From Panopea generosa (taxonomy: Eukaryota; Mollusca; Bivalvia; Adapedonta; Hiatellidae), in NCBI GenBank assembly GCA_029582155.1, contig CM055903.1:37556853-37620852 (forward strand): 64,000 nucleotides of DNA, in the 5' to 3' direction. Position 1 is the stretch's first letter; every line of letters starts with the position of its first letter. Below are positions 2,073 to 54,805 of this stretch, piece by piece. The position numbers were made by a program, and so were the translations under genes. Under the pieces are notes generated by a model. That model was not told where the DNA came from and made no database searches. It saw only the letters and a list, made by a program, of their open reading frames with translations.

Positions 2073-4267
2073 TTACTTCAAATTATCTGGCCTCTTCTTA
2101 AGTATCCCGTTACAACATTCAAACAGCTTAGCATCGTAGGCACGCGTGGAACAACACGCAGGGATCTCTCCTATCTTCTCCTTCACGACGCCACTGCAAC
2201 ATAAGAATTTATCCGCGTTATACGACTTACATCCACAACACATGGTATTTGAGCCAACACTAGGCTGAACTCTCCCGTCACAGCATAGTTCGTTATCCCC
2301 GTTGTACGGGTATGGCCCACAGCATTTTGTGTTTGAGCCGATGTTTTCCTTTACCAAGCCATTGCAGCACACGTGTGTCGTTCTGTCATACATGGCACCA
2401 TCACAACATGCAGGCTCGATACCTGTTCTGTTGTAAATAAATCCTGAACAGCAAATCGAGAAAGCGGCATCGTAAGACAGATCTGAACAGCATTTTGGAA
2501 CGTCCAGTCCCATTACCGGATAAAGATTTCCCCTGCAGCATATGGAATCTACAGCATCGTATAATGCTTTCCTGCAGCACGCAGGGCTTACAGTTCCTTT
2601 CTTGTCAACGATGGTGTCTATACAACAGCAATGTGACGAAGCGTCATAACTTGTAAACTTGCAACATAACGGTTCTAATCCGAAACGAGGCTGAACTACA
2701 CCATCACAACACATGCTATTCACGGCATCGTATGAAATGGTCCCACAGCACCCCGGTTGCTTACCTAACCTCTGCTGCACTTGACCAAGACAACAAAGCT
2801 CCGCCGCTGCATCGTAAGCCTGTGTGTTACAACACATGGGCTTCGATCCTACCTGCTCATTTACCGCTCCCTCACAGCATATTTGGGACACCGTGTTGTA
2901 CTGCTCGGCTCCACAACAAGCTGATGTGTTCAGTGTCTTCGCAATTGTAATATTTTCGCAACATATAGATTCCACCTCATCGATCAGGACTTTTCCGCAG
3001 CACACCGGTACCAGAACATTCTTAAGACTTCGTACCCGCCCGTCACAACACATGAATTTCGCTTCGTCGTAGGCACTTCTTCCGCAACAAAGCGGTTTAG
3101 CACCTTGTAATATTTCAATTCTACCATCGCAGCATTGGTAATGTGCCAAATCGTAAGTATCCTTTCCACAACACTTTGACAATGCCCCTTTCATGTTTCT
3201 TACTTTACCATCACAGCAAAGTTGGTACGCTCTATCATAAGCCTTTGTTCCACAGCATTTCGGTTTGGCGCCATTGATTTTAGACAATTTACCGTCGCAA
3301 CATATTTGTTCAGTGGCATCGTACATCTTGTTAAGGCAGCATTTAGGGTCCTCTCCTCTTTTGTTTTTAATAGTTCCATTACAGCAAAGCTGTGACAATG
3401 TATCGTAACGTTTATCATTGCAGCATTTACTGTTTGTCCCATACATGCTTCGAACAACCCCTTTACAGCATAATTTTTTCGTCGCATCAACAACAGTATC
3501 GTTACAACAAATCGGATGAGCTCCTTGCTTACCAGAGAGGTTTCCCTTACAACAAATCTTGACAGCAGCATCATAAGCAAGGTTACCGCAGCATCGAGGT
3601 ATGACACCTTTCTTCTTCTGCACAACACCCTGGCAACACATCCATTTACATTGTGCGTAACTGACGTTTCCGCAGCACTTTGTATCTGCATCATCCCTCT
3701 TGTGCAGATTACCTTTACAACAGACTTGTTTGACGGAGTCGTAAGCTTCCGTCCTGCAGCACCTCGGACTATCACCTCTCTTTTTGCTAACCATTCCCTG
3801 GCAACACATTTGCTTTGCTGGATCGAAACTATCATTTTTACAACATTTTGCCGATGAACTTATTCTTCCCTGGAGTGACCCTTTGCAGCACAGCATTTTC
3901 GTGGCGTCGTATGCGGAACTTCCACAGCAGCGTGGCAGCTTTCCCTGCTTCTCCTGTACAACTCCCTTGCAGCACAACTGATCGGCACCGTCCATAGCAG
4001 AGCGGCCACAACACATTGGCAGCTTTCCAGATTTGTCAATGATATTTCCTTTGCAACACATTGATGTTGCCGCATCGTACGATACACTGCCGCAGCATTT
4101 TGGAAGGCTTCCGTTGCGCGAATTCAACTTCCTGTTACAGCACATATATATTGTAGCGTCGTAACTTTTCTTGGCGCAGCAACGGCTCATTGGTCCTTCC
4201 TTGGGCTGTATCGTTTCTTCGCAACACAGCTGTGTCACTGGATCGAAAACTTTTTCTCCGCAACGGA
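2073..4267 (-). CDS. Exon 5: galaxin-type double-cysteine repeat domain (residues 141-871)
   Basis: A single 2195 bp exon encodes the C-terminal 730 residues and the stop. It consists of about 26 units of 27-28 residues. Each has a CC pair, 8-9 residues usually containing (Y/F)D(A/P/S), a second CC pair, then a basic/glycine spacer, e.g. CCGSSAYDATKMLCC. This is the galaxin repeat pattern. The acceptor is tatattgtag before TCCGTTGCGG; the two leading bases complete a Phe codon split with exon 4. An internal GTG near 4238 is not the start, because the frame and the repeat pattern continue upstream to the acceptor. Several units carry Asn-X-Ser/Thr sites. Units 8, 20 and 25 each hold an extra cysteine. 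The protein ends soon after the last unit with a short basic tail. Confidence 0.9.
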
Positions 4268-4557
4268 CTACAATATAACATAAAATACTAACGTATGTTT
4301 ATATACGAGAATAGATTAAACACAAAATACGATGCAAATGAGACTAAGACTTAAAACAAGGAAAAGAACGTGGTTCCTAAACCGGAAATTTCCATCCACT
4401 GGTCAACTGGATATGTATACATATATATAATGTATGTTATGTATAAATATATTGTTGTGAGGTGCTGTACATTGGCATATATATAACAATAAATACATGC
4501 ATATACCGGTGTGCTAAACACTGGAATACAAATAACATTATTTATATATATATATAT

Positions 4558-4985
4558 TAAGGGAGATAATTAAATTCACAACAACGGAATTTACGATTTT
4601 TGGGATCTTTTCAGATGCTCATTCACAATGCATGATATATATATGAAGATAATTATTTGTGAATAACCAAGACATAAATGTACAGACCAGACTACGGCGA
4701 GTGCGCCTAGCTACAATGCAAACCATAGATACAATATCAAGGCCTCTGCCAAACCAATAAATTTGGTGTCGACCATGACTTATATACTATGGAATTGCAT
4801 GCAACACATCTGGACATGGTGGACAAATTTACATACATGAAGTGATAGCTTTATATGAGTAGGATCCAGTTAAGGATTCATGACTACTCATATGCTATAT
4901 AAAGGACAGATTTATAAACCCGTTGGATCATAAAGATACAGTGAATTCATATATATTTAATTTCATAAAGGGACAATAGTATGCA
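4558..4985 (+). mobile_element. Dispersed repeat element F, copy 1
   Basis: The 115 bp block 4558-4672, beginning agggagataattaaattcac, is almost identical to 6057-6170. The block 4790-4985 matches, in reverse complement, the sequence around 32510-32650, which also follows an inverted copy of the first block. This shows a multi-part dispersed element. No coding capacity is visible. Class is unassigned. Confidence 0.6.
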
Positions 4986-5760
4986 CGTAACAATAATTAC
5001 GTGTATATAGTGATGTGCTGTACAATAGTATACACGTAACATTAATTACGTGTACATCGTGATGTGCTGTACAACAGTATACACGTAACATTAATTACAC
5101 TGGCAAACATATAACAATAATTACCTGTAAACCGTGATGTGTTGCACACTGGCATACATATAACAGTAATTACGTGTAAACTGTGATGTGCTGTACACTG
5201 GCGTACATATAACAATAATAACGTGTAAATTGTGATGTGCTGTACACTGACATACATATAACAATAATAACATGTAAACTTTGATGTGCTGTATGCGGGT
5301 ATACATATAACAATAATAACATGTAAACTTTGATGTGCTGTATGCTGGTATACATATAACAATAATTACATGTAAATCTTGATTTGCTGTACACTGGCAT
5401 ACATATAACAATAATAACATGTAAATCTTGATTTGCTGTACACTGGCATACATTTAACAATAATAACGTGTAGATCGTGATGTGCTGTACACTGGCATAC
5501 ATATAACAATAATAACGTGTAAACTGTGATGTACTATACAAAAGTATACATATAACAATAATCACGTGTAAATCGTGATATGCAGTACTATAGTATACAT
5601 AAAACAAAATTACGTGTAAATCGTGATGTGCTGTACAACAGTATACATATAACAATAATTACACTTTACCGTGATGTAGTGTACAATAGTAAACATATAA
5701 CACTAATTACGTGTAAATAGTAATGCGCTTTACACTGGCATGCATCTAACAATAATTATA
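4977..5760. repeat. 49-bp minisatellite, about 16 copies
   Basis: The unit contains acatataacaataataac and gtgatgtgctgtacactgg, spaced 49 bp apart (for example starts at 5205 and 5254). Copies diverge toward both ends. The minus-strand open frames of 106-161 codons here derive from the repeat. Confidence 0.9.
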
Positions 5761-5949
5761 ATACTTCTAAACGTCTCTATATATACCATTAGGACCTTCT
5801 TAATATCAGCTACGGAAACAAAAAAATAATATTCGTCCACGATTTTTACTTAATTTTCTCTCAAACCAGTTAAAACCAGATAAAATGTAACTAGACGTCA
5901 GCACACCTTTGATACTATCATGGTAATTTTTTAAGTGAAAAGGTTGTTT

Positions 5950-5952
<3 letters not shown>

Positions 5953-6026
<74 letters not shown>

Positions 6027-6056
6027 AAATATATATATATATATATATTTATATAA
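5953..6056. repeat. Compound (CT)n-(TA)n microsatellite
   Basis: About 36 bases of pure CT dinucleotide run directly into TA-rich dinucleotide repeats, then abut copy 2 of dispersed element F. Confidence 0.95.
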
Positions 6057-6170
6057 AGGGAGATAATTAAATTCACAACAACGGAATTTACGATTTTTGG
6101 GATCTTTTCAGATGCTCATTCACAATGCATGATATATATATATGGAGATAATTATTTGTGAATAACCAAT
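6057..6170 (+). mobile_element. Dispersed repeat element F, copy 2 (partial)
   Basis: A 115 bp near-duplicate of 4558-4672 in the same orientation, ending in the same attatttgtgaataacca. It is flanked on both sides by TA microsatellite. Confidence 0.75.
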
Positions 6171-6244
6171 GTCTATATATATATATATATATATACTTAT
6201 GATTGGCTTAATACACTGCCGTGTAAATATAAGCGTGATATTCA

Positions 6245-6905
6245 GACTGTTCCTAAATTGAGAAGCTACAAACTTTTTAACGAACTCTTGAATGTGAAAA
6301 GTACGTTGTAACCAATTTAAAGAAAAACGAGAGATCTATTATGTGTCAATTTAGGTGTGGCATTTTACCTATAAGAATAGAGACTGGAAGGTATATTGGT
6401 GAAACTCCAAACAGAGACTATGTAGATTCTGTGACACAGGGTCCGTTGAAAACGAGAAAAAATTTCTGTTACATTGTGGACTTCAAGATATACTTCTTGC
6501 TGATATGTTTATTAGTTTTAACTATGATGAGAAACTGTCATATTTACTACAAATATATCCATAAAAAGTCGTTAAATATCTTGTACAGGTCTACCTTAAA
6601 CGTAAAAATATTATATATTAGGCATTTTAATCATCGACCAAAACCTATTTACCGATCAAGTGGTTCAGATATTAATATCCAATTATGCTATTAACAAGTT
6701 GTGAAAAAATGTCAGCTCAACCCATTCATACTAGGTACATATATTTATTTTTGAATGAACTGGATACTGTAATTAAATTAAGGTTTTTATAGGCCCAATG
6801 GGCCGGGTGCTCTTTATATTTGCTTTGTATTATATTGTATTGATTGTTACAAATTATGCACATGTCACTATAATAAAATATTTACTTACTTACTTACTTA
6901 TAAGG
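6245..6905 (+). pseudogene. LINE-type retroelement 3' fragment, frameshifted
   Basis: Reading across frames gives PKLRSYKLFNELLN, then QFRCGILPIRIETGRY, then after a frameshift CRFCDTGSVENEKKFLLHC. This matches the C-terminal zinc-knuckle region (C-x2-C ... H-x-C) found after the reverse transcriptase domain in many mollusc LINE-like elements. It is followed by an A/T-rich 3' region containing gcccaatgggccgggtgctc and a tail of tacttacttactta repeats, as expected for a LINE 3' end. The reading frame is broken and the reverse transcriptase is absent, so this is a dead 5'-truncated copy inside intron 4. Confidence 0.6.
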
Positions 6906-7211
6906 CCTATTTACATAATCCCCTTGATGTTGTCTAATAAGCATACATATGTCACCAGACTAGTAGTCAAGCGAAATGCCGATCGCTGTTTTCACACCTG
7001 CATGATGAAGGCCCGTTTTATAAACAACATCGCACACCACTCATACAACGTGCATGAGAACAGGTGCGGGATCAGTTTATGTAATTGGATGGAGTCACTA
7101 TACATACATGTATATGTTTTAACTTCTTTCCTATTTATATACCAATAAGTTGACAATACAATGCATGTCAACCCAATTTTATCTAAGACTTAAAAGCACA
7201 ATTTTGAGTTT

Positions 7212-7470
7212 TCATGATGAGTGTAAAGTTAGTAGGAAGCTAGCAGTTGGTAGTTGGGGATCCGACCAATTGCCAGTTGGGGACTCGGATTCGTTATTAT
7301 AATTGCTATTTAATTTAAATATTTTACTAGTGTTTATATGTTTAACAATATAATCAATGAAAAATGTTCACAGTTGGCGATTCGCTACGAATCCCCAACT
7401 GGGCATTTTCAATCGCCGTCTGGTGAGTATACTCGGTATATTGAAGAACCACTGGTGTGTTATTTATTAC
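7212..7470 (+). mobile_element. MITE-like element D, copy 1
   Basis: Contains internal mirrored motifs (ttggggattcgg ... gaatccccaact) around an AT-rich centre. It is homologous to 36675-36995 and to the reverse complement of 7575-7875. There are no coding features. It is probably non-autonomous. Confidence 0.65.
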
Positions 7471-7574
7471 TGAAAACCTGTTTTTTTTTATTATTGAATT
7501 GATTAGTTAAAATAATAAAACAGCGATTATAAAAAAAATCCGAAACAGTTTAAAACAATAAATAAACACCATTC

Positions 7575-7875
7575 CCGCGTTGTTCCTTCAATATAAGGAG
7601 TATATTCATCAGGAAACAATTCAAAATTTCCAGTTGGGATTCGCCGCGAATTGCCAATTTCCAACCAGTTGCCAGTTTGGGATTCGGATTTTATATCAAT
7701 TTGCATACATTTTTTATTGATTCTATTTTTAAATATATAAACACGTTTAAAATTTCTAAATTTAATAGTCATTATAATTACGAATCCGAATCCCCAACTG
7801 GCAACGGGTCGGTAGTTGGTTATTCGAATCCTCAACTACCAACTGCGAACTACCTACCAACTTTACACTCATGCT
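7575..7875 (-). mobile_element. MITE-like element D, copy 2 (inverted)
   Basis: The reverse complement starts with gagtgtaaagttggtagg and ends near ttgaaggaacaacgc, paralleling copy 1. Together with copy 1 it forms a large imperfect palindrome about 100 bp apart. Confidence 0.65.
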
Positions 7876-7931
7876 TTCATCGGGTGATGAAAAAAATGGG
7901 CAAGTTTAATGTTCGTGTAACACGTAAGATG

Positions 7932-8028
7932 AATAGATGGATGGATGGATGGATGGATGGATGGATGGATGGACGGACGGACGGACGGACGGACGGACGG
8001 ACGGACGGATGGATGGATGGATGGATGG
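7932..8028. repeat. Tetranucleotide microsatellite, ATGG/ACGG/ATGG blocks
   Basis: GGAT repeats switch sharply to GGAC repeats and back to GGAT, giving a three-block compound array. Confidence 0.95.
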
Positions 8029-8219
8029 CGGACTTAATGAATAAGTTAATGAATGACTTAATGGATACATGAGTTTATTGATTACGTAACATCGACCTAT
8101 AAATATACATCACTTTGCGCGTACCAAAGGGTAAAGAATGTGATGACAATGTTGTATTAAAAAAATATGGTTAAAAATATAGTTAAGACTATAAGTGTTT
8201 GATATAATAAATATGTCAA

Positions 8220-8340
8220 GATATTTTTTGTTATTGTTGTTTGTTGTTGTTGCTGCTGCTGCTACTGCTGGTGTTATTGTTGTTGTGATGTTGTTGTTTT
8301 TGTTGTTGGTGGTGTGGTTGTTGCTGTTGTTGTTTTATAA
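8220..8340. repeat. TTG/TGC-rich low-complexity tract
   Basis: Imperfect trinucleotide repeats dominated by ttg with a short gctgctgctgct core. Confidence 0.8.
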
Positions 8341-8639
8341 TTTGAACAATAAGTTTATTATATACATTAAGTAGTAGAGCCAAATATACTATAATATTGT
8401 AAGTGTATATATAATATAAAACTACTCATTGGCGATTGTTACTGTAGATAATACACACCTTGATAGACAAATATCGATATAGCAGTTTAGTGTTTTTGTA
8501 TTCATTTTCAGACATGATTATATGTTTTTCATTTTATTGTTTATAATAGGCTATACAAAAGATGACTTACATTCTGGCATTTCAGCTGCAATAAAAAACA
8601 TGAATGAATAGTATGGTGTGTGATCTGAAATACAATATA

Positions 8640-8640
<1 letters not shown>

Positions 8641-8719
<79 letters not shown>
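8641..8719. repeat. (ACAG)n microsatellite, about 20 copies
   Basis: An uninterrupted gacagacagaca tract. The minus-strand CLSV-repeat open frame over it is an artefact. Confidence 0.98.
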
Positions 8720-9011
8720 TTATTTATAACAATTTCTTGCATATTTTGTTATTTAACAATAGCATATATCTACACTTGGTTTAGACGATGTTATCTTGCT
8801 ATCCCCAGCACCCCTCCCCCACCCCTACCCCCGGCTGCAGGTTTTTAACATAAAATAAACAAAGAAAAGCGAGGAAGTAAATGGGGATTTGGTATAAGTT
8901 TTAGATTAGTCTCTCTTTTGTAATAGTAATTTGCAACTAATCGCATCACTAGAAAATAGGTAAACTGTTATAACGAGAAACACACTTTTAACGGTGAAGA
9001 AGGATACTCAC

Positions 9012-9143
9012 AAACGACAGGTGATTGACAAGTCGAACCACAACCCGTGGAGCAACATTTCAGAATCCCTGCACAGTCAAAGTCATGTTGACAGGTGATA
9101 ACACAAATTCCCATTGTATTCTTTGGACAAGTTCCTGGCTTCG
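9012..9143 (-). CDS. Exon 4: WAP (four-disulfide core) domain, residues 97-141
   Basis: A 132 bp exon with phase 1 at both ends. It encodes the complete eight-cysteine WAP pattern: CP, C eight residues later, C-x3-C, C-x5-C, C-x5-CC, C-x3-C, with the characteristic xKCCSTGCGSTC core. Acceptor is gcatgcacag before CGAAGCC; donor is GTGAGT after GTCGTTT. WAP domains act as protease inhibitors, antimicrobials or structural shell proteins; which applies here cannot be told. It is too short to appear as a long open frame and was found from its cysteine pattern and splice sites. Confidence 0.82.
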
Positions 9144-9747
9144 CTGTGCATGCAATTCAATATAATGGTGTTTGATCATTGTAAAGGAGCGTAACCCATT
9201 CTAATCTGGTTCCCTGTTCTACCAATAGTTAGTTGAGCCGATTTTTCTGGTTAGTGCAGAGAACCAAACTAAACTCATTTAACGACATATTTGTTTTCAT
9301 GTATAAACACGTTTGTTTGAATTAAAACATGATGGGAGAAATATCAATAAACACAATCATTTTGAAGCGAATCAGTATTTTAACAAATATTGTAAACGTT
9401 GACTTTCCTGATAACAGCTGTATCTCTAATCATGAAATATATATTTTATATATATTTATTTATGTCCAAATAATTATAGTTTCCTTCCGAAATCTTCGTA
9501 AACATATATAAAACAAATTAAATTGTATATGCACAATAATAGCAGACCGCACATTTTAAATTACATAATCATAAATCTATCGTATTAAAAGATAATTGTA
9601 GTTTTTCATGTTCACACCTATCGAAGCTTGATAATATAAGAATAGAACAAGAATGCTCATTTCGCTAAAGAAACTAATGCGTTTATTTCTAGACATTATT
9701 TATTATCTAAATTACGTTTGCCAAACATTCAGAAATCAGATACTTAC
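9144..9747 (-). other. Intron 3 of the galaxin-WAP gene
   Basis: A 0.6 kb AT-rich intron with GTAAGT donor at 9747. No element or alternative exon is recognised in it. Confidence 0.75.
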
Positions 9748-9837
9748 GTTTATAACAAACTGGGCAACATTCACCTGTCGGAACATACTTTTTTTCACAT
9801 AACGGTGCCTTGCATCGTACTGTAGCACACCTGTCAA
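9748..9837 (-). CDS. Exon 3: second VWC-like cysteine module, residues 67-97
   Basis: A 90 bp phase-1/phase-1 exon encoding the spacing C-x4-C-x4-C-x9-CC-x2-C, ending YVPTGECCPVCYK. This is the pattern of the C-terminal half of von Willebrand factor C domains. The spacing is identical to that in exon 2, so the two modules probably arose by exon duplication. Acceptor is tatgaacag before TTGACAGG; donor is GTAAGT after TATAAAC. Confidence 0.75.
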
Positions 9838-10574
9838 CTGTTCATAAAGCACATATAGTTTCATAAAGTACATTCCAATCATTTACACAAACTCCACGGA
9901 CTGGTTCACATTTCTTTCGGTTCGGAAAATGTAAACACTTCAGCATTTGACAACCATTTTGTTGAAGTACTGGTTTTCAGCTCCGTGCCAATCTTACATT
10001 GAATGCCGGGTATAATACGCAACCCCAACTGAATTGATTACCAACAAGATGCGAAGACACTCACGCTCAGTCACATTCTGGCAGGTATTTCCTGCTTCAG
10101 AATTCAACATTGTTTAAATATCTATATGTTGTCATAGTGTTTGTTCAGGCTTCAATATATACTTATGCATGGACAGTGTTTTCGCAGCAAGACTGTGCTA
10201 ATATCTGTCTTAAACGTCCGATTGTAACCAATGAAAATCATACGGGTAGAATTTCCGCCCCAAAAAGTAATATTCTTAAATAAAATATACTTTTTGTTTA
10301 AAAACATGTTACAAACGTGCTAAAAGAGTAATACATCGTGAAATATTATTTTATTGCCATCTTCAATGGACGCCAATTGCTGCATGAGCCACAGTCATTA
10401 TACGTAGATTGGCTACAGTATGCAGGTTATCATTTACACACAACACAACCAAAGAATATGAAGTTACACACAAGGTTGCGTATTTCTTCATATTATCACC
10501 AGACACGACATTTTTGAATTCGCTATGTAAACAAACAAGCTACAATTTTTCAATTATAAGAAGGAATTATAATT
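9838..10574 (-). other. Intron 2 of the galaxin-WAP gene, unique part
   Basis: AT-rich non-coding sequence between exon 3 and the 56 bp array. No domain, RNA gene or element recognised. Confidence 0.6.
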
Positions 10575-11630
10575 AGCATACGACCAACTAAATAGCGTCG
10601 CTTCAGCTCAAGAGCATGGGCATGAAATGTAGCATACGACCAACTTAATAGCATCGCTTCAGCTCAAGGGCATGAGAATGAAAGGTAGCATACGACCAAC
10701 TAAATAGCGTCGCTTCAGCTCAAGGGCATGGGAATAAAATGTAGCATACGACCAACTTAATAGCGTCGCTTCAGCTCAAGGGCATTGGAATGAAATGTAG
10801 CATACGACCAACTTAATAGCGTCGCTTGTAGCATACGACCAACTTAATAGCGTCACTTCAGCTCAAGGGCATGGGAATGAAATGTAGCATACGACCAACT
10901 AAATAGCGTCGCTTCAGCTCAAGGGCATGGAAATGAAATATAGCATACGATCAACTTTATAGCGTTGCTTCAGCTCAAGGGCATATGAATGGAATGTAGA
11001 ATACGACCAACTTAATAGCATCGCTTCAAATCAAGGGCACGGAACTGAAATGTAGCATTCGACCAACTTAATAGTATTTATTCAGCTCAAGGGTATGGAA
11101 TTGAAAAACAGCATACGATCAACTAAATAGCATCGCTTCAGCTCAAGGGCTGGGAAATGAAATGTAAAATACGACAAACTAAATAGCATCACTCCATCTC
11201 AATGGCATGGGACTTATATGCAGCATACGACCAACTAAATAGCATGGAGGACAAAGGCATGGAAATAAAATGTATAGCATAAGACCAAGTAAATAGCATC
11301 GCTTCAAATCATGGGCACGGAACTGAAATGTAGCATACGGCCAAATTAATAGCATCGTTTCAGATCAGAGGGCAGGGAACTGAAATGCAGCATACGACAA
11401 ACCAAGAAGCATCACTTCAGCTCAAGGACATGGAATTGAAATGTTTAGTATAAGACCAAGTAAAAAGTATCGCTTCAAATCATGGGCACGGAACTGAAAT
11501 GTAGCATACGACCAAATAAAATGCATTGCTTCATCTCAAAGGCATGGAACTATAAAACAGCATACGACCAACTTAATAGCATCGTTTCAGCTCAAAGGCA
11601 ATGAACTGAAATATAGCATAATAAAGCTGT
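10575..11630. repeat. 56-bp minisatellite, about 18 copies, abutting exon 2
   Basis: The unit contains agcatacgaccaacttaata and cttcagctcaagggcatgg. Copies near 10600-10900 are most uniform; copies after 11000 diverge. The array ends about 20 bp short of the GTAAGT donor of exon 2 (11648 on the minus strand), so it begins almost at the start of intron 2. Confidence 0.92.
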
Positions 11631-11648
11631 TTTTTTTGGCTTACTTAC

Positions 11649-11786
11649 TTTCTGGCTCGCACCTAGGACAGCATTCATCATATCGAACCGTGGGTTTTAT
11701 GCAGTATAACTTGGGACACAGTACACCTGTGCAATTTCGTTTACCGCGATACGCTATTGGGTCCTCTGCTGACGCTGTCATCATGT
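11649..11786 (-). CDS. Exon 2: first VWC-like cysteine module, residues 21-67
   Basis: A 138 bp phase-1/phase-1 exon. After a short acidic linker it encodes C-x4-C-x4-C-x9-CC-x2-C, with VRYDECCPRC at the end. The donor is GTAAGT after GAGCCAGAAA. The preferred acceptor is tatatttgaag before ACATGATG; two further AG sites 10 and 19 bases on would also keep phase 1, so the exact 5' edge has an uncertainty of 3-6 residues. Confidence 0.75.
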
Positions 11787-11884
11787 CTTCAAATATAATA
11801 AAATGGTGATACATCAACTTCATTGATAGAATAAGCAATGTTAAATGTATATCAAATAAGCACTAGTGTTTGTTGCGATTGTAA

Positions 11885-13660
11885 TATATACAATGGTAGG
11901 AGAAGGAAGCAAGTGAAATGGCAAGAGTGTGTCAAGCAGTGTTAAGTGCAATCGTAATAGAAGTAATAGTGTTGGTATAAGTGTTCAGTGTAATCGTTAT
12001 AGAAGTAAAAGTGTTGGTAGAAGTGTTTATTACAATCTTAATAGAAGTAATAGTGTTCGTAGAAGTGTTTAGTGTGATCGTAATAGAAGTAATTGTAATG
12101 GTAGAAGTGATTTTTTTAATCGTAATAAAAATATTTGTGTTGATAGAATTGTTTACAGTTATCGTAATAGAAGTACAGTAAAACCTGTCTAAGTGAACAC
12201 CTCTATTAAACAGGCACCTGTTTTAAGCAAACATGTTTCCTATTTCCCATTTCTATGCTTTCAGAGTAAATTTACTTGCATTAACCAACAACATGTCTTA
12301 AAAGGCCACCTTTGCTCTTTCCTTTGACTGGCTGCTTAAGACAGGTTTGACTGTAATAGTGTTGATAAAGTGTTCAGCATAATCGCAATAGAAGTAAAAG
12401 TGTTGATAGAAGTATTTAGTATAATGGCAATAGAAGTAAAAGTGTAGATAGAAGTGTTAAGTATAATTGCAATAGAAGTAAACGTGTTGCAAGAAGTGTT
12501 TAGTATAATGGCAATAGAAGTAATTATGTTAAAATAAGTGGTTAGTGTAATCGTAATTATAGAAGAAATAGTGTTGGTAAAAGTGTTTAGTATAATCGTA
12601 ATACAAGTAACTTTGATCATAGAAGTGTTTAGTACAATCGTAATAGAAGTAATAATGTTGGTTAAAGTGTTAATTGCAATCGTTAAGGAGACATATTGTT
12701 GGTAGAAGCGTTTTGCAATCGTAATAGAAGTAATAGTGTTGGTAGAAATGTTTATTGCAATCGTGTTAAAGTAATAATGGTGGTAGAAGTGTTTAGTGCA
12801 ATCGTGATAGAAGCAAAAATGTTGGTTAAAGTGTTAATTGCAATCGTTAAGGAGAAATATTGTTGGTAGAAGCGTTTTGCAATCGTAATAGAAGTAATAG
12901 TGTTGGTAGAAATGTTTATTGCAATCGTAATAGAAGTAATAGTGTTGGTAAAAGTGTTTATATCAATCGTAATAGAAGTAATAGTGTTGGTAGAAGTGTT
13001 TATTGCAATCGTAATAGAAGTTACAATATTGGTAGAAGTGTTCAGTGTAATCGTGTTAGAAGTAATAATGTTGGTAGAAGTGTTTATTGCACTCGTAAAG
13101 GAGAAATAGTGTTGGCAGAAGTGTTTATTGCAATCGTGATAGGAGTAGTAGTGTGATAGGAGTGTTAAGTGTTATCGCAATAGAAGTAATAGTGTTGGCA
13201 GAAGTGTTTATTGCAATCGTAATAGAAGTAATAGTGTCGGTGGAAGTGTTTATTGCAATAGGAATAAAAGTAATAATGTTGGATGAAGTGTTTAGTTCAA
13301 TCAAATAGAAGTAATAGTGTTGGTCGAAGTGGTTAGTATAATCATAATACAAGTAACAGTGATAATAGAAGTGTTTAGTACAATCGTAATAGAAGTAGTA
13401 GTGTTGGTAGAAGTGTTAAGTGCAATCGTAATAGAAGTAATAGTGTTGGTTGAAGAGTGTAGTAAAATCGTTTAACACGTAATAATGTTTGTAGAAGTGT
13501 TTATTGCGACCGTTATAAAAGTTATAGTGTTGGTAGAAGTGTTTTGTGCAATAGCAACAGAAGTAATAGTTGTTGAAGAAGTATTAAGTGCAATAGTTAA
13601 AGAAGTAACGTTTTTAGTTAAAGTAACGGTTTTGGTAGTGTGTGCAGTAATGGTAGACGT
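11885..13660. repeat. 42-bp minisatellite, about 38 copies, with an inserted MITE
   Basis: The unit contains tgttggtagaagtgtttatt and caatcgtaatagaagtaat, with a 42 bp period. As 42 is a multiple of 3, the frame is kept from unit to unit, giving Val/Ile/Glu-rich plus-strand frames (for example 12900-13109) that are not genes. The array is interrupted at 12176-12353. Confidence 0.93.
12176..12353. mobile_element. 178-bp MITE with TA target-site duplication
   Basis: The left end cagtaaaacctgtctaag and right end cttaagacaggtttgactg are imperfect inverted repeats of about 20 bp, flanked on both sides by TA (12174-12175 and 12354-12355). The element sits inside the 42 bp array and interrupts it cleanly. 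TA duplication and CAGT termini point to mobilisation by a Tc1/mariner/pogo-type transposase; this assignment is inference. Confidence 0.8.
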
Positions 13661-14023
13661 ATATTGATGATAGAAGTGACAGTTGTAGCAACACCGGTAG
13701 AAGCAGTTTTATAAATTGTTGTGACACTGATTTTTGTAAATGTTGTCGTTTCCATAGTTCAATTATCTTTAAAGTGGTAATAACTTCATTGCTATAACAA
13801 ACTGATGTCAAACTATGACGAAAAAAGAAAACAAAATCAACCAGACTTTAGATCAATAAACGGTGATAGCGTGAATGCATAAAGTAAATGTAAAATACGG
13901 TAGCAATTAATCGTAAAACAGTAGAAATTATAGAAGGCAATGTAAAAGCGCCTTTACATTTGTTTTCTCTAACGGTAATAACGACATAAGGTGCGATTAT
14001 GTACGTATTAATTTTACATTTAC

Positions 14024-14084
14024 CTCCAGCTGCGAAAAAATATGCCAAGGCAAGAAAAACACTGAACTTAAATACGGAGTCCAT
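14024..14084 (-). CDS. Exon 1: start codon and signal peptide, residues 1-20
   Basis: The ATG at 14084 has A at -3 and G at +4. It opens a classical signal peptide (MDSVFKFSVFLALAYFFAAG) with a hydrophobic core and small residues near the expected cleavage site. Donor GTAAAT follows GCTGGAG and leaves phase 1, matching exon 2. Open-frame continuation past the donor to 13848 has no similarity to the rest and is read as intron. Confidence 0.78.
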
Positions 14085-24419: not shown

Positions 24420-27400
24420 GAAATATTTGCTGTTGAGTCACTTAATATTTTTATTTGTCTTGAATGCGTTCATATCTACATTATACGTTCATTTGTCCTT
24501 AATACGTTCATATCTTCTTTATACGTTCATATCTCCTTTATACGTTATTTTCCCTTTATACATTCATATGTTTCCTTATACGTTCAAATATACTTTCATA
24601 TCTCCTTTATTCGTACTTTCTCCTTTTTACATTCATATATTTCCGTTATCACCTGGATCTAAATTCATCAATTCAAATATTTAAGATTCAAATAATATAT
24701 ATTACACAACCCACTTGCTATATTTACTCTGCAGAAACAAGCAGTTTAATTGTTAGTTAACATTAAGTGTTACAGAATCATATCTATCACCCATAATTGT
24801 ATGTTATCAGTATTTTACAAATATTGATAAATTTAGGCCCAGTATACGTCCCTATCTCCTGTATACGTTCCCATCTCCTGTATACGTCCCTATATCATGT
24901 ATACGTTCCCATCTCCTGTATACGTAGTTACCTATCTCCTGTATACGTCTCTATCTCCTGTATACGTTCCAATCGCCTGTATACGTTCATAGCTCCTGTA
25001 TACGTCCCTTTCTCCTGTGTACTTTACCATCTCCTGTATACGTTCCTAGCTCCTTTATACGCCCCTATCTCCTATATACGTCCCCATCTCCTGTATACGT
25101 TCCTATCTCCTGTATACATCCCTATCTCCTGTATACGGTCCCATCTCCTGTATACGTTCCTAGCTCCTGTATACGTCCCTATCTCCTGTATACGTTCCCA
25201 TCTCTTGTATACGTTCATAACTCCTGTATATGTTCATAGCTCCTGTATACGTCTCTATCTCCTGTATACGTTCCCATCTCCTGTATACGTTCCTAGCTCC
25301 TGTATATGTCCCTATCTCAGGTATACGTTCCCATCTCCTATATACGTTCCTATCTCCTGAATACATTCTTATCTGCTGTATACGGTTCTATCTCCTTTAT
25401 ACGTTCCTATCTCATGTATACGTTCCCATCTCAAGTATACGTTTCTATCTCCTGTATACGTTCCTATCTCATGTTTACGTTCCCATCTCAGATATACGTT
25501 TCTATCTTCTTAATACGGTCCTATCTCATGCATACGTTCTCATCTTAAGAATACGTTCTATCTCATGTATACGTTCTTATCTCATGTAAACGTTCCAATC
25601 GCATATATACGTTCCCATCTCAAGTATACGTTCCTATCCTCTCTATATGAACTTCTCTTGTATAAGTGCCTGTCTCCGGTATTCGTTCCAAGATCCTGTA
25701 TATATTCCTATCTCCTCAAAACGTTCCTATCTCTTTCTCCTGCATACGTTCCTATCTCCTGTACATGTTCCTATCTCCTGTATACGGTCCTATCTCCTGT
25801 ACACGTTCCTATCTTCTGTATACGTTCCCATTTCCTACATTCGTTCCCATCTCCTGTATACGTTCCTATCTCCTGCATACGTGCTTATTAAATATATACG
25901 TGCTTATCTCCTGTATACCTTCCCATCTCCTGTAAACGGTCCTATATTATGTATACGTTCCTATCTCCTGTAAACGTGCCTATCAACTCTATACGTTCCT
26001 ATCTTCTGTATACGTTTCCATCTCCTGCAAACGTTCCCATCTCCTGTATACGTTCCTATCTCCTGTATACGATCTCATCTCCTGTATACGGTCCTATCTC
26101 CTGTATACGTTCCTTTCTCCTGTATACGTGCCTATCAACTCTATACGTTCATATCTTCTATATACGTTCCCTTCTCCTGTATACGATCCTATTAAATATA
26201 TACGTGCTTATCTACTGTATACGTTCCCATCTCCTGTATACGGTCCTATCTCCTGTATACGGTCCTATCTCCTGTATACGTGCCTATCTCCTGTTTACGT
26301 GCCTATCAACTCTTTACGTTCATATCTTCTATATACGTTCCCTTCTCCTGCATACGTTCCTATCTCCTGTATACGTTCCTATCTCCTGCATACGGTCTTA
26401 TCAAATATATACCTGCTTATATCCTGTATACGTTTTCATCTCCTGTATACGATCTTATCTCCTGTATACGTTCCTATCTCCTGTATACATTCATGTTTCC
26501 TGTATATGTTCATATTTCCTATTTACGTTCCTATCTCACGTCGATGTGCCTTTCTCCTGTATACGTTCCTATCTCCTGTATACGTCCCTATCTTCTGTAT
26601 ACGTTTCTATCTCCTGTATACTTTCCTATTACCTTTATACGTTCATATCTCATGTATATGTTCCCATCTCCAGTATACGTTCATATTTCCTGTATACGTT
26701 TCCATCTACTGTGTACATGTCTATTTCTTGTATACATTCCTATCACCTCTAAACGTTCCCATTTCATGTAAACGTTTCCATCTCCTGTATACGATCCTAT
26801 ATCCTGTATATATTCCTATCTCATGTATACGTTCCTATCTCCTATAAACGTTCCTATCTCCTGTATACGTTCCTATTTCCTTTACACGTTCCTACCTCAT
26901 GTATATGTTCCCTTCTCCAGTATACGTTTATAGCTCCTCTATACGTTCCTATATTCTGTATATACTCTTATCTCCTGTACACATTTCTCTCTCCGGTATA
27001 TATTTCTATCTCCTGTATGCATTCTTATTATCTGTATACGTTTCTATTCCCTGTATATGTGTATATCTACTCTATACGTGCCTGTCTCCTGTATACATTA
27101 TCTCCTGTATATATTCCAATTTCCTGTACATGTTTCTATCTCCTGTATACGTTCCTATCTCCTGTATATATATTTCTATCTCCTGTACATATTTCTATCT
27201 CCTGCAAACTTGCCTTACTCCTGTATATATATTTCTATCTACTATATATATTTCTATCTCCTGTACATATTTCTATATCCTGTATGCGTTCCTATCTCCT
27301 GTATATATATTTCTATCTCCTGTATTTATTCCTATCTCATGTTTACATTTCTATATCCTGTAAACTTGCCTATCTCCTACATATATATTTCTATCTACTG

Positions 27401-30400
27401 TATATATTCCTATCTCCTGTACATATTTCTATCTCCTGTATACGTTCCTATCTCCTGTATATATATTTATATCTCCTGTATATATTCCTATCTCCTGTAC
27501 ACATTTCTACCTCGTGTGAACTTGCCTTTCTCCTGTATATATATTTCTATCTCCTGTATATATTCCTATCTCCTGTACATATTTCTATCTCCTGTAAACT
27601 TGCCTATATCCTGTATATATTCCTATCTCCTGTACATATTTATATCTCCTGTATACGTTCCTCTCTCCTGTATATATATTTCTATCTCTGTATATATTCC
27701 TATCTCCTGTTCATATTTCTATCTCCTGTATATATTTATATCGCCTGTAAACTTGCCTATCTCCTGTATATATATTTCTATCTACTGTATATATTCCTAT
27801 TTCCTGTACATATTTCTATCTCCTGTATACGTTCCTATCTCCTGTATATATTTCTATCTCCTGTATATATTCCTATCTCCTGTACATATTTTTATCTCCT
27901 GTAAACTTGCCTATATCCTGTATATATTCCTATCTCCTGTATATATTTCTGTCTCCTGTATACGTTCCTATCTCCTGTATATATATTTATATCTCCTGTA
28001 TATATTCCTATCTCCTGTACATAATTCTATCTCCTGTATACGTTCCTATCTCCTGTATATTTATTTCGATCTCCTGTATAAATTACTATCTCCTGTACAT
28101 AATTCTATCTCCTGTATACGTGCCTATCTCCTGTATATATATTTTTATCTCCTGTATATATTTCTGTCTCCTGTACATATTTCTATTTCCTGTATGCGTG
28201 CCTATCTCCTGTATATGTATTTCTATCCCCTGTATATATTCCTATCTCCTGTACATGTTTTTATCTCCTGTAAACTTGTCTATCTCCTGTATATATGTTT
28301 CTATCTCCTGTATGTATTCCTATCTCATGTTTACATTTCTAACTCCTGTATACGTTCCTGTCTCCTTATATGTTCCTATCTCATGTATACATGCCTTTCT
28401 CTGGTATATATTCCTATCAGCAGTATGCATATTATCTCCAGTATTCCCTGTATACGTTCCTGTTTCCTGTATACGTGTCTATCTCCTGTATACGTTCCTG
28501 TATTCTGTATACGTGCCTATCACCTGTATACGTGCCTGTCTCCTGTATACGTGCCTGTCTCCTGTTTAAGTGCCTATCTCCTGTATACGTTCCTGTCTCC
28601 TGTTTAAGTGCCTATCTCCTGTATACGTTCCTGTCTCCTGTATACGTGCCTATATCCTGTATACATGCTTATCTCCTGAATACGTGCATATCTCCAGAAT
28701 ACGTTCCTGTCTCCTGTATACGTGCATATCACCAGTATACGTTCCTGTCTCCTGTATACGTGCATATCTCCTGTATATGTTTCTGTCTCCTGTTTATGTG
28801 CCTATCTCAAGTATACGTTCCTGTCTCATGTATACGTGCATATCTACTTTATACGTGCCTATCTCATCTCATGTATACATTATACGTTTTTATCTCCTGT
28901 ATACGTTCATATATCCTTGTTACGTTTCAATTTCCTCTATATGTTTCTATCTCCTGTATACATGTATATATTCCTATCTCCTGTATACGTTCCTGTCTCC
29001 TGTTTAAGTGCCTATCTCATGTATACGTTCCTGTCTCCTGTATACGTGCCTATATTCTGTATACATGCTTATCTCTTGAATACGTGCATATCTTCTGTAT
29101 ACGTTCCCGTCTCCTGTATACGTTCCTGTCTCCTGTATACATGCTTATCTCCTGTATACGTACCTATCTTCTCTATACGTTCCTGTCTCCAGTATACATG
29201 CTTATCTCCTGTATACGTTCCTGTCTCCCGTATACATGCTTATCTCCCGAATACGTGCCTATCTCCTGTATACGTTCCTGTCTCCTGTATACATGCTTAT
29301 CTCCTGTATACGTGCCTATCTACTCTATACGTTCCTATCTCCCGTATACATGCTTATCTCCTGTATACATTCCCTTCTCCCGTATACATGCTTATCTCCT
29401 GAATATGTGCATATCTCCTGTATACGTTCCTGTCTACCGTATACATGCTTATCTCCTGTATACGTTCCTGTCTCCTGTTTACGTTCTTATCTCCTGTATA
29501 CCTGCATAACTCCTGTATACGTTCATGTATCCTGTATACGTGTTTATCTCCTGAATACGTGCATAAAGCCTGTATGATACGCTCCTGTCTCCTGTATACA
29601 TGCTTATCTTCTGAATACGTGCATATCGCCTGTATACGTTCCCGTCTCATGTATACGTGTTTATCTCCTTTATACGTTTCTGTTTCCCGTATACATGCTT
29701 ATCTCCTGTATGCGTTCCTGTCTCCTGTTTAAGTGCCTATCTCCTGTATACGTTCCTGTCTCCTGTATACGTGCCTATATCCTGTATGCATGCTTATCTC
29801 TTGAATACGTGCATATCTTCTGTATACGTTCCCGTGTCCTGTATACGTTCCTGTCTCCTGTATACATGCTTATATCCTGTAAACGTGCCTATCTACTCTA
29901 TACGTTCCTGTCTCCCGTATACATGCCTATCTCCTGTATACGTTCCTGTCTCCTGTATACATGCTTATCATCTGTAAACGTGCCTATCTACACTATACGT
30001 TCCTGTCTCTCGTATACATGCTTATATCCTGAATACGTGCATATCTGCTTTATACGTTCCTGTCGCCTGTATACGTGCTTATCGCCTATCTATTCTATAC
30101 GTTCCTGTCTCCCGTATACTTGCTTATCTCCTGTATACATTCCCTTCACCCGTATACATGCTTATCTCCTATATACGTGCATATCTCCTGTATACGTTCC
30201 AGTCTACCGTATACATGCTTATTTCCTGTATACGTTCCCGTATCCTGTATACGTTCTTATCTCCTGTATACCTTCATAACTCCTGTATACGTTCATGTAT
30301 CCTGTATACGTGTTTATCTCATGAATACGTGCATAACTCCTGTACGATACGTTCCTGTCTTCTATATACATGCTTATCTCCTGAATACGTGCAAATCTCC

Positions 30401-31360
30401 TGTATACGTTCCCGTCTCATGTATACGTGCTTATCTCCTGAATACGTGCATTTCTACTGTATACGTTCCCGTCTCATGTATACGTGCTTATCTCCTGAAT
30501 ACGTGCATATCTCCTGTATACATGCTTATCTCCTGTATACGTTCCTGTCTCCTATATACATGCTTATCTCCTGTATACGTGCATATCTCCTTTATACATT
30601 CCTGTCTCCCGTATACATGCTTATCTCCTGTATACGTTCCTGTTTCCTGTATACGTGCTTATCTCCTGTATACCTGCATAAATCCTGTATACGTTCCTGT
30701 CTCCTGTATACGTGCTTATCTCCTGAATACTTGCATATCTCCTGTATACGTTCCTTTCTCCTGTATACGTGCATATCTCCTGTATACGTTCCTATCTCCT
30801 GTATACGTGCTTATCTCCTGTATACGTTCCTGTCTCCTGTATACATGCTTATCTTTTGTATACGTTCCTGTCTCCCGTATACATGCTTATCTGCTGAATA
30901 TGTGCATATCTCCTTTATACATTCCTGTCTCCTGTATACATGCTTATATCCTGTATACGTTCCTGTCTCCTGTATACGTGCTTATCTCCTGTATACCTGC
31001 ATAAATCCTGTATACGTTCCTGTCTCCTGTATACGTGCTTATCTCCTGAATACGTGCATATCTACTGTATACGTTCCTTTCTCCTGTATACGTGTATATC
31101 TCCTGTATACGTTCCTGTCTCCTGTATACGTGCTTATCTCCTGAATACGTGCATATCTACTGTATATGTGCATATCTCCTATATATTTTCCTGTCTCCTG
31201 AATACGTGCATATCTACTTTATACGTGCCTATCTCCTGTATACGTGTATATCTACTCTATACGTGCCTATCTCCTTTATAGGTTCCTGTCTCCTCTATAC
31301 GTGCCTATCTACTGTATACGTTCCTATCTATTGTTCACGTGCTTATCTCCTATATAAGTT
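24420..31360. repeat. Giant 19-bp minisatellite, about 6.9 kb
   Basis: Unit consensus gtatacgttcctatctcct (19 bp), roughly 350 copies. Regional variants dominate different stretches: catatctccttta at 24480-24640, atatatttctatctcct at 27100-28300, and gtatacgtgcctgtctcct or gtatacatgcttatctcct at 28450-31300. The unit has no stop in any plus-strand frame, so 57 bp (19 codons) forms a protein-level repeat and frames up to 516 codons result. Between 24685 and 24830 the pattern is interrupted by unrelated sequence. Confidence 0.96.
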
Positions 31361-31637
31361 CATTGTTTGTAAGATTGATTTGATGTTTGTTCATGAATAT
31401 AAAAATAATTGATCATTGCCTTTAAAGAGAAGTTTAAACATATCAATATATCATGTAAAATTACTTAAATATACAAAAATTCATTAGACATCTACAAAAT
31501 AACAGTATCATAAAGGCGACATAAGCACATTTAATCTATATATGTCACGGTCTGTCTAAGTGATAATGCATTACCCTAGGTTAGACCGTATGTAAGAAAA
31601 AATGAGTGACTTTTAAGTATACCAGAGGCCCAGATAG
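31361..31637. other. Intergenic, nothing recognised
   Basis: AT-rich flank of the 19 bp array, without features. Confidence 0.4.
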
Positions 31638-45729: not shown

Positions 45730-48700
45730 TAAACTACGTTCATGCTCCCCAGTGGTGATTGTACTACCTACTGACACGTTGTTCACGTTCCCCAGTGGTT
45801 ATTGTGATACCAACTGACACCTCTTTCATGCTCCAAAGTGGTGATTGTACTACCTACTGAAACCACGTTCACGTTCCCCAGTAGTTATTATGCTATCTAC
45901 TGACACCACGTTCACGCTCCCCAGTGGTTATTGTGCTACCTACCGACACCACGTTAACGCTCCCCAGTGGTGATTGTACTACCTACTGACACCACGTTCA
46001 CGCTCCTCAGTGGTTATTGTGCTATCTACTGACACCAAGTTCACGCTCCCCGGTGGTTATTGTGATACCTACTGACACCACGTTCATGCTCCCCAGTGGT
46101 GATTGTACTACCTTCTGACACCACGTTCACGCTCCCAGTGGTTATTGTGCTATCTACTGACACCAGGTTCACGCTCCCCAGTGGTTATTGTGCTACCTAC
46201 TGATACCACATTCACGCTCCCCAGTGGTTATTGTGCTACCTACAAACACCACGTTCACGCTCCCCAGTAGTTATTGTGTACATACTGACATCACGTTCAC
46301 GCTCCCCAGTGGTTATTGTGCTACCTACTGACACCACGCTCACGCTCACCAGTGGTGATTGTGCCACCTACTCACATCATGTTCACGCTCAAAAGTGGTT
46401 ATTGTGCTACCTGTTGGAAACACGCTCACGCTCCCCAGTGGTGATTGTGCTACCTACTGACATCACGTTCACGCTCTCCAGTGGTAATTGTGCAACCTAT
46501 TGGCAACACGCTCACGTTCCCCAGTGGTTATTGTGCTCCCTGTTTGCAACACACTCAATCTCCCCAGTGGTTATTGTGCTCCCTATTTGCAACACACTCA
46601 AGCTCCCCAGTGGTTATTGTGCTCCCTGTTTGCAACACACTCAAGCTCCCCAGTGGTTATTGTGCTCCCTATTTGCAACACAATCAAGCTCCCCAGTGGT
46701 TATTGTGCTCCCTATTTGCAACAAACTCAGGCTCCTCAGTGGATATTGTGCTACCTACTGACATCACGTTTTCGGTCCTCAGTGGTAATTGTGCTACCTA
46801 CTGACACCACGTTCACGCTCACAGTGGTAATTGTGCTACCTACTGACACCACGTTCACGCTCACAGTGGTTATTGTGCTACCTATTGGTAACACGCTCAG
46901 GCTCACCAGTGGTTATTGTGCTACCAATTGGCAACACGTTCACGCTCCCCAGTGGTTATTGTGCTATTTACCGACACCACGTTCACGCTCCCCAGTGATG
47001 ATTTTGCTACAAACTGACATCACGTTCACGCTCCCTAGTGGTTATTGTGCTACATATTGACACCACGTTCACGCTCCAAAGTGGTTATTGCGCTAACTAT
47101 TGGCAACACGCTCACGCTCCCAAGTGGTAATTGTGTTACCTACTGAAATCACGTTCTCGCTCCCGAGTGGTGATTGTGCTACCTACTGACATCACGTTTA
47201 CGCTCTCCAGTGGTAATTGTGCAACCTATTGGCAACACGCTCACGCTCCCCAGTGGTTATTGTGCTCCCTGTTTGCAACACACTCACGCGTCTCGGTGGA
47301 TATTGTGCTACCTACTGACACCGCGTTCAAGCTCCCAGTTGTTATTGTGCTACCTATTGGCAACACGTTCACGCTCACCATTGGTTATTGTGCTATTTAC
47401 CGACACCACGTTCATGCTCCCCAGTAGTGATTTTGCTACCTACTGACATCATGTTCACGCTTCCTAGTGGTTATTGTGCTACCTATTGACACCAAGTTCA
47501 CGCTCCAAAGTGGTTATTATGCTTCCTATTGACATCACGTTCACAATCACCAGTGGTTATTGGGCTACCTATTGACACTACGTTCACGCTCCCCAGTGGT
47601 TATTGTGCTTCTTATTGACATCACGTTCACAATCCCCAGTTGTTATTGGGCTACCTATTGACACATCGTTCACGCTCCACAGTGGTTATTGCGCTACCTA
47701 TTGGCAACAAGCTTACGCTCCTCAGTGGTTATTGTGCTACCTTTTGGCATCACGTTCACACTCCCAAGTGGTTGTTGTGCTACCTACTGATACCAGGTTC
47801 ATGCTCCCCAGTGGTTATTGTGCTACCTACTGACATCACGTTCATGCTCCACAGTGGTAATTGTGCTACCTACTAACATCAACGCTCACAAGTGGTTATT
47901 GTGCTACCTACCGACATCACGTTTACGCTCCCCAGTGGATATTGTGCTACCTACAGACATCACGATCAAGCTCACCAGTGGTTATTGTGCTACCTACTGA
48001 CATCACCCTCACGCTCCCCAGTGGTTATTGTGCTACCTACTGACATCATGCTCACGCTCCCCAGTGGTTATTGTGCTACCTACTGATATCACGCTCACGC
48101 TCATCAGTAGTTATTGTGCTACTTACCGACATCACGTTAACGCACCCCAGTGGTTATTTTGCTACCTACTAACATCACGTTTACACTCCCCAGTGGTTAT
48201 TGTCTTACCTACTCACATCACGTCCCCCCCCCCCCCCCCCGTGGTGATTGTTCTTCTTATAGCTCCCCAGTGGTTATTGTGCTACCTACTGACACAACGT
48301 TTACACTCCCCAGTGGTTATTGTGCTACCTACTGACACAACGTTCACGCTCCCCAGTGGTTATTGTGCTACGTATTGATAACACATTCACGCTCACAAGT
48401 GGTTATTGTGCTACCTATTGATAACACGTTCACGCTCACAAGTGGTTATTGTGCTACCTATTGATAACACGTTCACGCTCACAAGTGGTTATTGTGCTAC
48501 CTACTGATACCACGCTCGCGCTCACCAGTGGTTATTGTGCTACCTACTGACACCACGTTTACCTGATTGTGCTACCTACCGACACCACGTTCAACCTCCT
48601 CAGTGGTTATTGTGCTACTTACTGCCACCACGTTCACGATTCCCAGTGGTTATTGTGCTACCTACTGACACCGCGTTCACGCTCCAAAGTGGTTATTGTG

Positions 48701-54073: not shown

Positions 54074-54805
54074 AACATAATCAAGCTATCGTAATGCTGA
54101 AAGCTGGAGCTAGAGTTGGTTTACTTTAGTACACACATCGAGATATTGGCGATAGTATACTACTCAGAGTTTGCTAAGCACCAAATATTTCACACGGCAT
54201 TGACCAGAGAGGACTGGCGACCTGTCCTTTATACAGATGAGTCCAGGTATTGTCTAAACTATACAGATAGGCGTGGTAGGGAATGGAGAAGGCCGGGAGA
54301 GATATTCCACGCAGCCAACATTGCTGAGCATGACCGCTATGGAGGCGGCTCCGTCATTGTCTGGGGCAGGATCAGCTGGGATGGACGTACAAACCTCATT
54401 GTCCTTGACCGCGGTACACTGAATGTCCAGCGGTATAGAGATGAGATTCTGGATACCCATGTAAGATTGTATGCTGGTGCAATCGGTGATGGGTTCATTC
54501 TAAAGGACGATATTGTATGTCCTCATGCTGCCTATGCTGTCCGAGAGTAACTTCAGATGGAGGAGATTGCACGTCTGGACTGGCCTGCCCGATCTCCCGA
54601 GCTCAATCCCATCGAGCATGTGTGGAATGAATTGCAGCTTGGAATTTCAGCCCGTCAAGTCATGCCAAGAGGTATCCAGGAGTTTGGTACCATGCTGGTC
54701 CAAGAATGGAACAACATCCCACAAAGGACCATCATGAACCAGATAGGGAGCATGAAGAGACGTTGCCAAGCTGTAACTAACAGCAACGGGTCACATACTC
54801 GATAG
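54074..54805 (+). pseudogene. Tc1/mariner (IS630-like) transposase remnant with an in-frame stop
   Basis: A short helix-turn-helix-like start (QAIVMLKAGARV) near 54090 is followed, after a break, by a long frame with VLYTDESRYCLN (first catalytic Asp), GGGSVIVWGRIS, a corrupted second motif (DDIVCPH where DN-rich PH is expected) and LDWPARSPELNPIEHVWNEL (third catalytic acidic position). The two open pieces, 54116-54550 and 54557-54805, are in the same frame, separated by a single TAA at 54548-54550. Most of the N-terminal DNA-binding region is missing. No terminal inverted repeats could be assigned. It lies in sulfatase intron 2 in the same orientation as the gene. Confidence 0.88.

Follow-up and report, generated by a model that had tools for sequence, protein, structure and literature searches.

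Whether a WAP module and a long array of galaxin repeats can belong to one secreted protein is the question raised by a locus of the bivalve Panopea generosa (assembly GCA_029582155.1). The 64,000-nucleotide stretch that was analyzed, hereafter the window, corresponds to positions 37556853-37620852 of contig CM055903.1 (C10). On its minus strand, an earlier note made from the sequence alone had described five exons which join in frame into a single gene, and whose product would combine a signal peptide, two VWC-like modules, a WAP module and about 26 galaxin repeats. The results described below suggest that the five exons probably form one gene encoding a secreted galaxin-related mosaic, the likeliest function of which is that of an extracellular matrix or mucosal coat protein (shell matrix in a mollusc), with a rod that would act as scaffold or spacer and a WAP that would act as binding module.

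The translation of the joined exons gives 871 amino acids followed by a stop, and the exon positions are those given in the earlier note (Table 1). All four junctions are in phase 1, which is the usual intron phase of shuffled extracellular modules, with GT donors and AG acceptors. The four donors rank in the top 1.4-7.0% among the 841 GT sites of the region when they are scored with a simple matrix. The N-terminus is hydrophobic, as judged from hydropathy only, which supports the proposed secretion. Minisatellites sit within the introns at window positions 4973-5758, 10574-11620 and 12353-13608 (units of 49, 56 and 42 bases, respectively).

Table 1. Features of the putative WAP-galaxin gene (window coordinates).
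Feature	Position	Strand	Description
Exon 1	14024..14084	-	61 nt; start codon ATG, hydrophobic signal segment MDSVFKFSVFLALAYFFAAG; phase-1 end
Exon 2	11649..11786	-	138 nt; phase 1-1; end of the signal region, RGKR, first half-VWC module
RGKR, residues 34-37	11737..11748	-	follows the signal segment; R-X-K-R, convertase-type; putative cleavage
Exon 3	9748..9837	-	90 nt; phase 1-1; second half-VWC module
Exon 4	9012..9143	-	132 nt; WAP four-disulfide module at residues 98-138; eight Cys; C2-C3 loop short
Exon 5	2073..4267	-	2195 nt; 26 galaxin repeats (the first degenerate, with a lone Cys), stop
Candidate polyadenylation signal ATTAAA	1925..1930	-	motif match only; further ones start at 1712, 1599 and 1498

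Pfam Galaxin_repeat (PF24748) matches the full 871-residue protein with an E-value of 7.3e-182 (595.7 bits for a cut-off of 28). The array is composed of 25 full repeats of 27-29 amino acids and a degenerate first repeat that has a lone cysteine (RCGEKVFDPVTQLCC), which agrees with the estimate of about 26. These tandem repeats of about 30 residues, each with two di-Cys motifs, place the protein among the galaxin-related proteins. The 21 full repeats of exactly 28 residues were compared with one another (three repeats of 29 residues and one of 27 were excluded): both Cys pairs are kept in all 21, the mean amino-acid identity is 36.8%, and the nucleotide identity is 55.7% at codon positions 1 and 2 and 32.1% at position 3. 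The 106 cysteines of residues 142-871 are encoded by TGT (55) or TGC (51), and the codons agree at the conserved cysteines in 0.490 of the pairs, compared to 0.501 expected for a random use of TGT and TGC. Invariant Cys pairs encoded by random Cys codons indicate that the array is old and that selection on the protein has maintained it. A recent satellite origin of the array is disfavored by the same two features and by the divergence at position 3.

In the N-terminal half-VWC/WAP head, the assignment of the WAP made in the earlier note is firm, as is that of the galaxin repeats, and the VWC-like label is fair but weak. The WAP module is recognized by Pfam PF00095 in a 141-residue N-terminal piece (E 5.7e-12, 46.2 bits for a cut-off of 20.8) and by the whole-genome profile search at window 9019-9141 (48.9 bits), and exon 4 has all eight cysteines in WAP spacing. 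When the full 871 residues are scanned, Galaxin_repeat is the sole Pfam match at E <= 1, and neither WAP nor VWC appears. Two copies of a VWC-like module are indeed present, as proposed, but each of them is only the second half of the module. The best stretch covers positions 27-57 of the 57-position profile, and no full VWC module is found above the Pfam cut-off of 27.6 bits, the scores being 27.2 bits with a 73-residue piece and 18.5 bits with the 141-residue piece. The VWC-like part has no match in the PDB at E <= 1.

The best solved relatives of the WAP module are omwaprin-a (E 2.1e-7), anosmin-1 and nawaprin. Its C2-C3 segment consists of three residues (VIT), as in these three proteins, compared to eight in antileukoproteinase; elafin matches at E 0.004, the loop comparison having been made with the antileukoproteinase alignments. 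The C2-C3 loop is the inhibitory loop of WAP protease inhibitors, and its extended form is not found here. With so short a segment, the module is unlikely to be an elastase-type inhibitor; the head may have a binding or an antibacterial role.

According to the proposed scheme, the signal peptide would be removed, a convertase would cut after RGKR, and internal disulfides would make the rod stiff and resistant to proteases. The half-VWC/WAP head would bind a partner, be it a protein of the matrix, a mineral or the surface of a microbe, and the WAP would serve as a binding module rather than as an elastase-type inhibitor. Phase-1 exon shuffling has probably placed the half-VWC/WAP cassette before the galaxin exon. 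A galaxin rod bearing a WAP head would connect two families that have each been associated with minerals and with surfaces exposed to microbes.

Instead of a structural role, the protein might have an antimicrobial or symbiont-gating one in the gill or mucus, comparable to that of squid EsGal1 and of antibacterial WAP proteins. Omwaprin is antibacterial, and omwaprin-a is the closest solved relative of the WAP, with which it shares the three-residue C2-C3 segment. The array is net basic (100 Lys and Arg vs 72 Asp and Glu). In the excerpts of the papers that are cited here and below, the galaxin transcripts of mussels change following contact with Vibrio (PMC7772429, PMC6697025), and EsGal1 is termed antimicrobial (PMC7853314). 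However, 26 regular repeats under selection suggest a scaffold; an antimicrobial function is possible but less likely.

The other galaxin arrays of the genome bear on the question of whether the head and the array belong together. The profile searches covered the 1.47-Gb genome (39 contigs). Of 1107 galaxin candidates, 150 were scored, which makes the number of arrays a lower bound: they occur at at least ten places, of which eight are on C10 (16.31, 37.03, 37.56, 51.83, 61.85, 62.41, 65.02 and 65.14 Mb, the array at 37.56 Mb being that of the window), C3 and C16 having one each. The array at C10:65024441-65041486 lies in a single open frame of 5,867 amino acids, and other long frames are found at 37.03 Mb (3,785 amino acids) and 51.83 Mb (2,868 amino acids). 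At C10:62411527-62414916, the galaxin frame continues into a long Lys/Glu-rich tail that resembles a coiled coil by eye, and which is perhaps another galaxin fusion. The matches at 61.85 Mb score nearly identically to those at 62.41 Mb.

All 68 WAP candidates were scored, which gave 44 matches at E <= 0.001. Two of these matches, at C10:16324389 and 16325993, share the strand of the 16.31 Mb array and lie upstream of it, at distances of 10.7 and 12.3 kb from the last galaxin match listed there, and both exons can be read as phase 1-1. If the 44 matches were uniformly spread, at least one array would have a WAP match on its strand within 12.5 kb upstream with a probability of about 0.002 when ten arrays are considered, and of 0.009 when fifty are. 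This calculation excludes the window's own array, which was the starting point, and uses a distance that was picked after the data had been seen. Half-VWC and WAP head matches are also found close together at C7:4245041-4254904 and C1:73577949-73632851, which are possible sources of the head cassette.

If the locus consisted of two adjacent genes, a small secreted half-VWC/WAP protein would be followed by a separate galaxin gene. The frame of the WAP exon could indeed stop, since it meets a stop after 14 codons when it is read past the donor, polyadenylation motifs are present at 8538 and beyond, the last intron is the longest, and no WAP match among the 44 listed lies close to eight of the ten arrays. 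Yet the galaxin exon would then need a first exon of its own. The minus strand was scanned from 16000 to 4268 (11.7 kb) for ATG exons of 40-240 nt that have a hydrophobic core (mean hydropathy >2.2) and end at a phase-1 donor scoring >5, and only two candidates passed: exon 1 itself and, at 8742-8571, a simple-repeat frame of the form (CLSV)n. Under these thresholds, the stretch from 9012 to 4268 offers the galaxin exon no plausible first exon apart from the (CLSV)n frame. The phase-1 acceptor of the galaxin exon is compatible with the phase-1 donor of the WAP exon, and a second array likewise has WAP exons upstream. The galaxin exon at 62.41 Mb begins in the same way, with a pyrimidine-rich phase-1 acceptor and a first repeat with a lone cysteine, MCGGHLFNPAMQICC; the edge of the 16.31 Mb array reads KCENKKLIPDFDFPNEICC, with the acceptor beyond the DNA examined. 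The existence of two genes is therefore improbable. The fusion of WAP and galaxin in one gene, as the earlier note proposed, is credible, being strengthened by the first-exon scan, by the matching exon start at 62.41 Mb and by the WAP exons upstream of the 16.31 Mb array.

Several observations weigh against a WAP-galaxin fusion, its recurrence or the proposed role. The fusion is a prediction from genomic sequence. The acceptors are weak, with tracts that are 0.50-0.75 pyrimidine and negative scores in the same matrix script as was used for the donors, and the introns, of about 2.2, 1.8, 0.6 and 4.7 kb, are partly minisatellite. At 16.31 Mb, where about 10 kb lies between the galaxin and WAP exons, the fusion is hypothetical, and the two WAP exons look like a single local duplication, as their surroundings match too. 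Among the matches listed, none of the 44 WAP matches is near the other eight arrays, and the WAP-galaxin architecture is not the rule within the galaxin family. Lastly, the function and the tissue are deduced from relatives.

It is very improbable that the WAP is the active part of the protein, a protease inhibitor carried by a matrix rod: all eight WAP cysteines are present, and WAP modules of the antileukoproteinase/elafin type inhibit serine proteases, but the C2-C3 segment falls five residues short of that of antileukoproteinase.

For the galaxin repeats of the preferred matrix or coat protein, a fold was predicted with AlphaFold from 32 rows, consisting of seven exon 5 repeats (window 3513-4100) and 31 further genome segments, some of which overlap within the same arrays. 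The model of the seven repeats has a pLDDT of 96.3 and a pTM of 0.75. It is all-beta, with regular four-residue strands; each 28-residue repeat has two pairs of closely spaced strands, and the first strand of every pair bears a Cys pair according to the AlphaFold secondary structure. The strand pairs may be hairpins stacked as a rod, and the cysteines of the repeats are predicted, from the model and the sequence, to form internal disulfides. None of the solved structures matched the galaxin repeats by fold or by profile, which does not prove that the fold is new. The many arrays of one genome provide enough sequence for a confident model, and the idea of a disulfide rod is open to testing at the bench.

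A bolder, tentative reading is compatible with these data: there may exist a WAP-headed branch of galaxins, comprising the window gene and the locus at C10:16.31 Mb, and the galaxin repeats may form a disulfide-stapled beta rod unlike the solved structures, which would have expanded in this lineage, largely on one contig, to frames of up to 5,867 amino acids.

The matrix protein Lustrin A also carries a WAP-like module. Like the present protein, it is large, rich in cysteines and repetitive, with di-Cys motifs (PMC2726143), but it has a Gly/Ser domain and Pro-rich repeats, both of which the WAP-galaxin translation lacks. Perlwapin and the WAP-rich shell proteins of Lottia are secreted shell proteins with WAP modules (PMC3374290, PMC6003135); they have three to eleven of them and, in the text compared, no galaxin repeats, whereas one WAP and 26 galaxin repeats are found here. 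Perlwapin inhibits the growth of CaCO3 crystals, according to the title of its paper in a reference list.

Galaxin was the first protein characterized from the coral skeleton, and its role is still termed unresolved (PMC6824150). Related proteins occur in stony and soft corals, molluscs, annelids, sea urchins and sponges (PMC7853314, PMC6824150). Among molluscs, galaxin is named in the shell proteome of a slipper snail (PMC9365450), in a transcriptome table from clam mantle (PMC9100110) and among the shell-secretion genes of a clam (PMC9768464). The coral galaxins (Galaxea galaxin and Amgalaxin) resemble the present protein, in which the signal peptide is putative, in having a signal peptide, a dibasic cleavage site and tandem repeats of about 30 residues with two di-Cys motifs (PMC2726143), and the convertase-like RGKR site is in line with their dibasic site. 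However, Amgalaxin has 338 residues compared to 871 here, and no WAP or half-VWC is reported for coral galaxins in the text compared. The endoprotease motif of galaxin sensu stricto, from stony corals, is RXRR (PMC6824150), while the site here is R-X-K-R, and the protein is not classed in that group. Cysrichin from the mussel Hyriopsis cumingii, which is expressed mainly in mantle and gill, is a galaxin-like protein of a mollusc with di-Cys tandem repeats and a putative signal peptide, but it has 163 residues and five repeats, and no other module is named in the excerpt (PMC10045328).

No description of galaxin and a WAP domain in one protein was found in the open-access literature, a search that reached neither the bulk of the subscription literature nor any general protein database; the earlier note's suggestion that the combination may be undescribed is to be read within that scope. 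In an open-access co-mention of galaxin and "whey acidic protein", as far as the excerpt goes, WAP stands in the list of abbreviations, and galaxin and a WAP protein are separate table entries in two other papers (PMC9100110, PMC6697025).

Elsewhere in the window, a sulfatase gene of several exons lies on the plus strand at 38742-61664, three of the four frames tried matching Pfam Sulfatase (E 3e-16, 5.1e-12 and 3.5e-8). A putative remnant of a Tc1/mariner transposase was noted by eye on the plus strand at 54101-54802; one of the two frames tried there matches DDE_3 below the cut-off (23.4 vs 28.6 bits) and the other has no match. Outside the introns mentioned above, minisatellites are present at 1-1326, 24842-31361 and 45736-51105, with units of 41, 19 and 43 bases, respectively.

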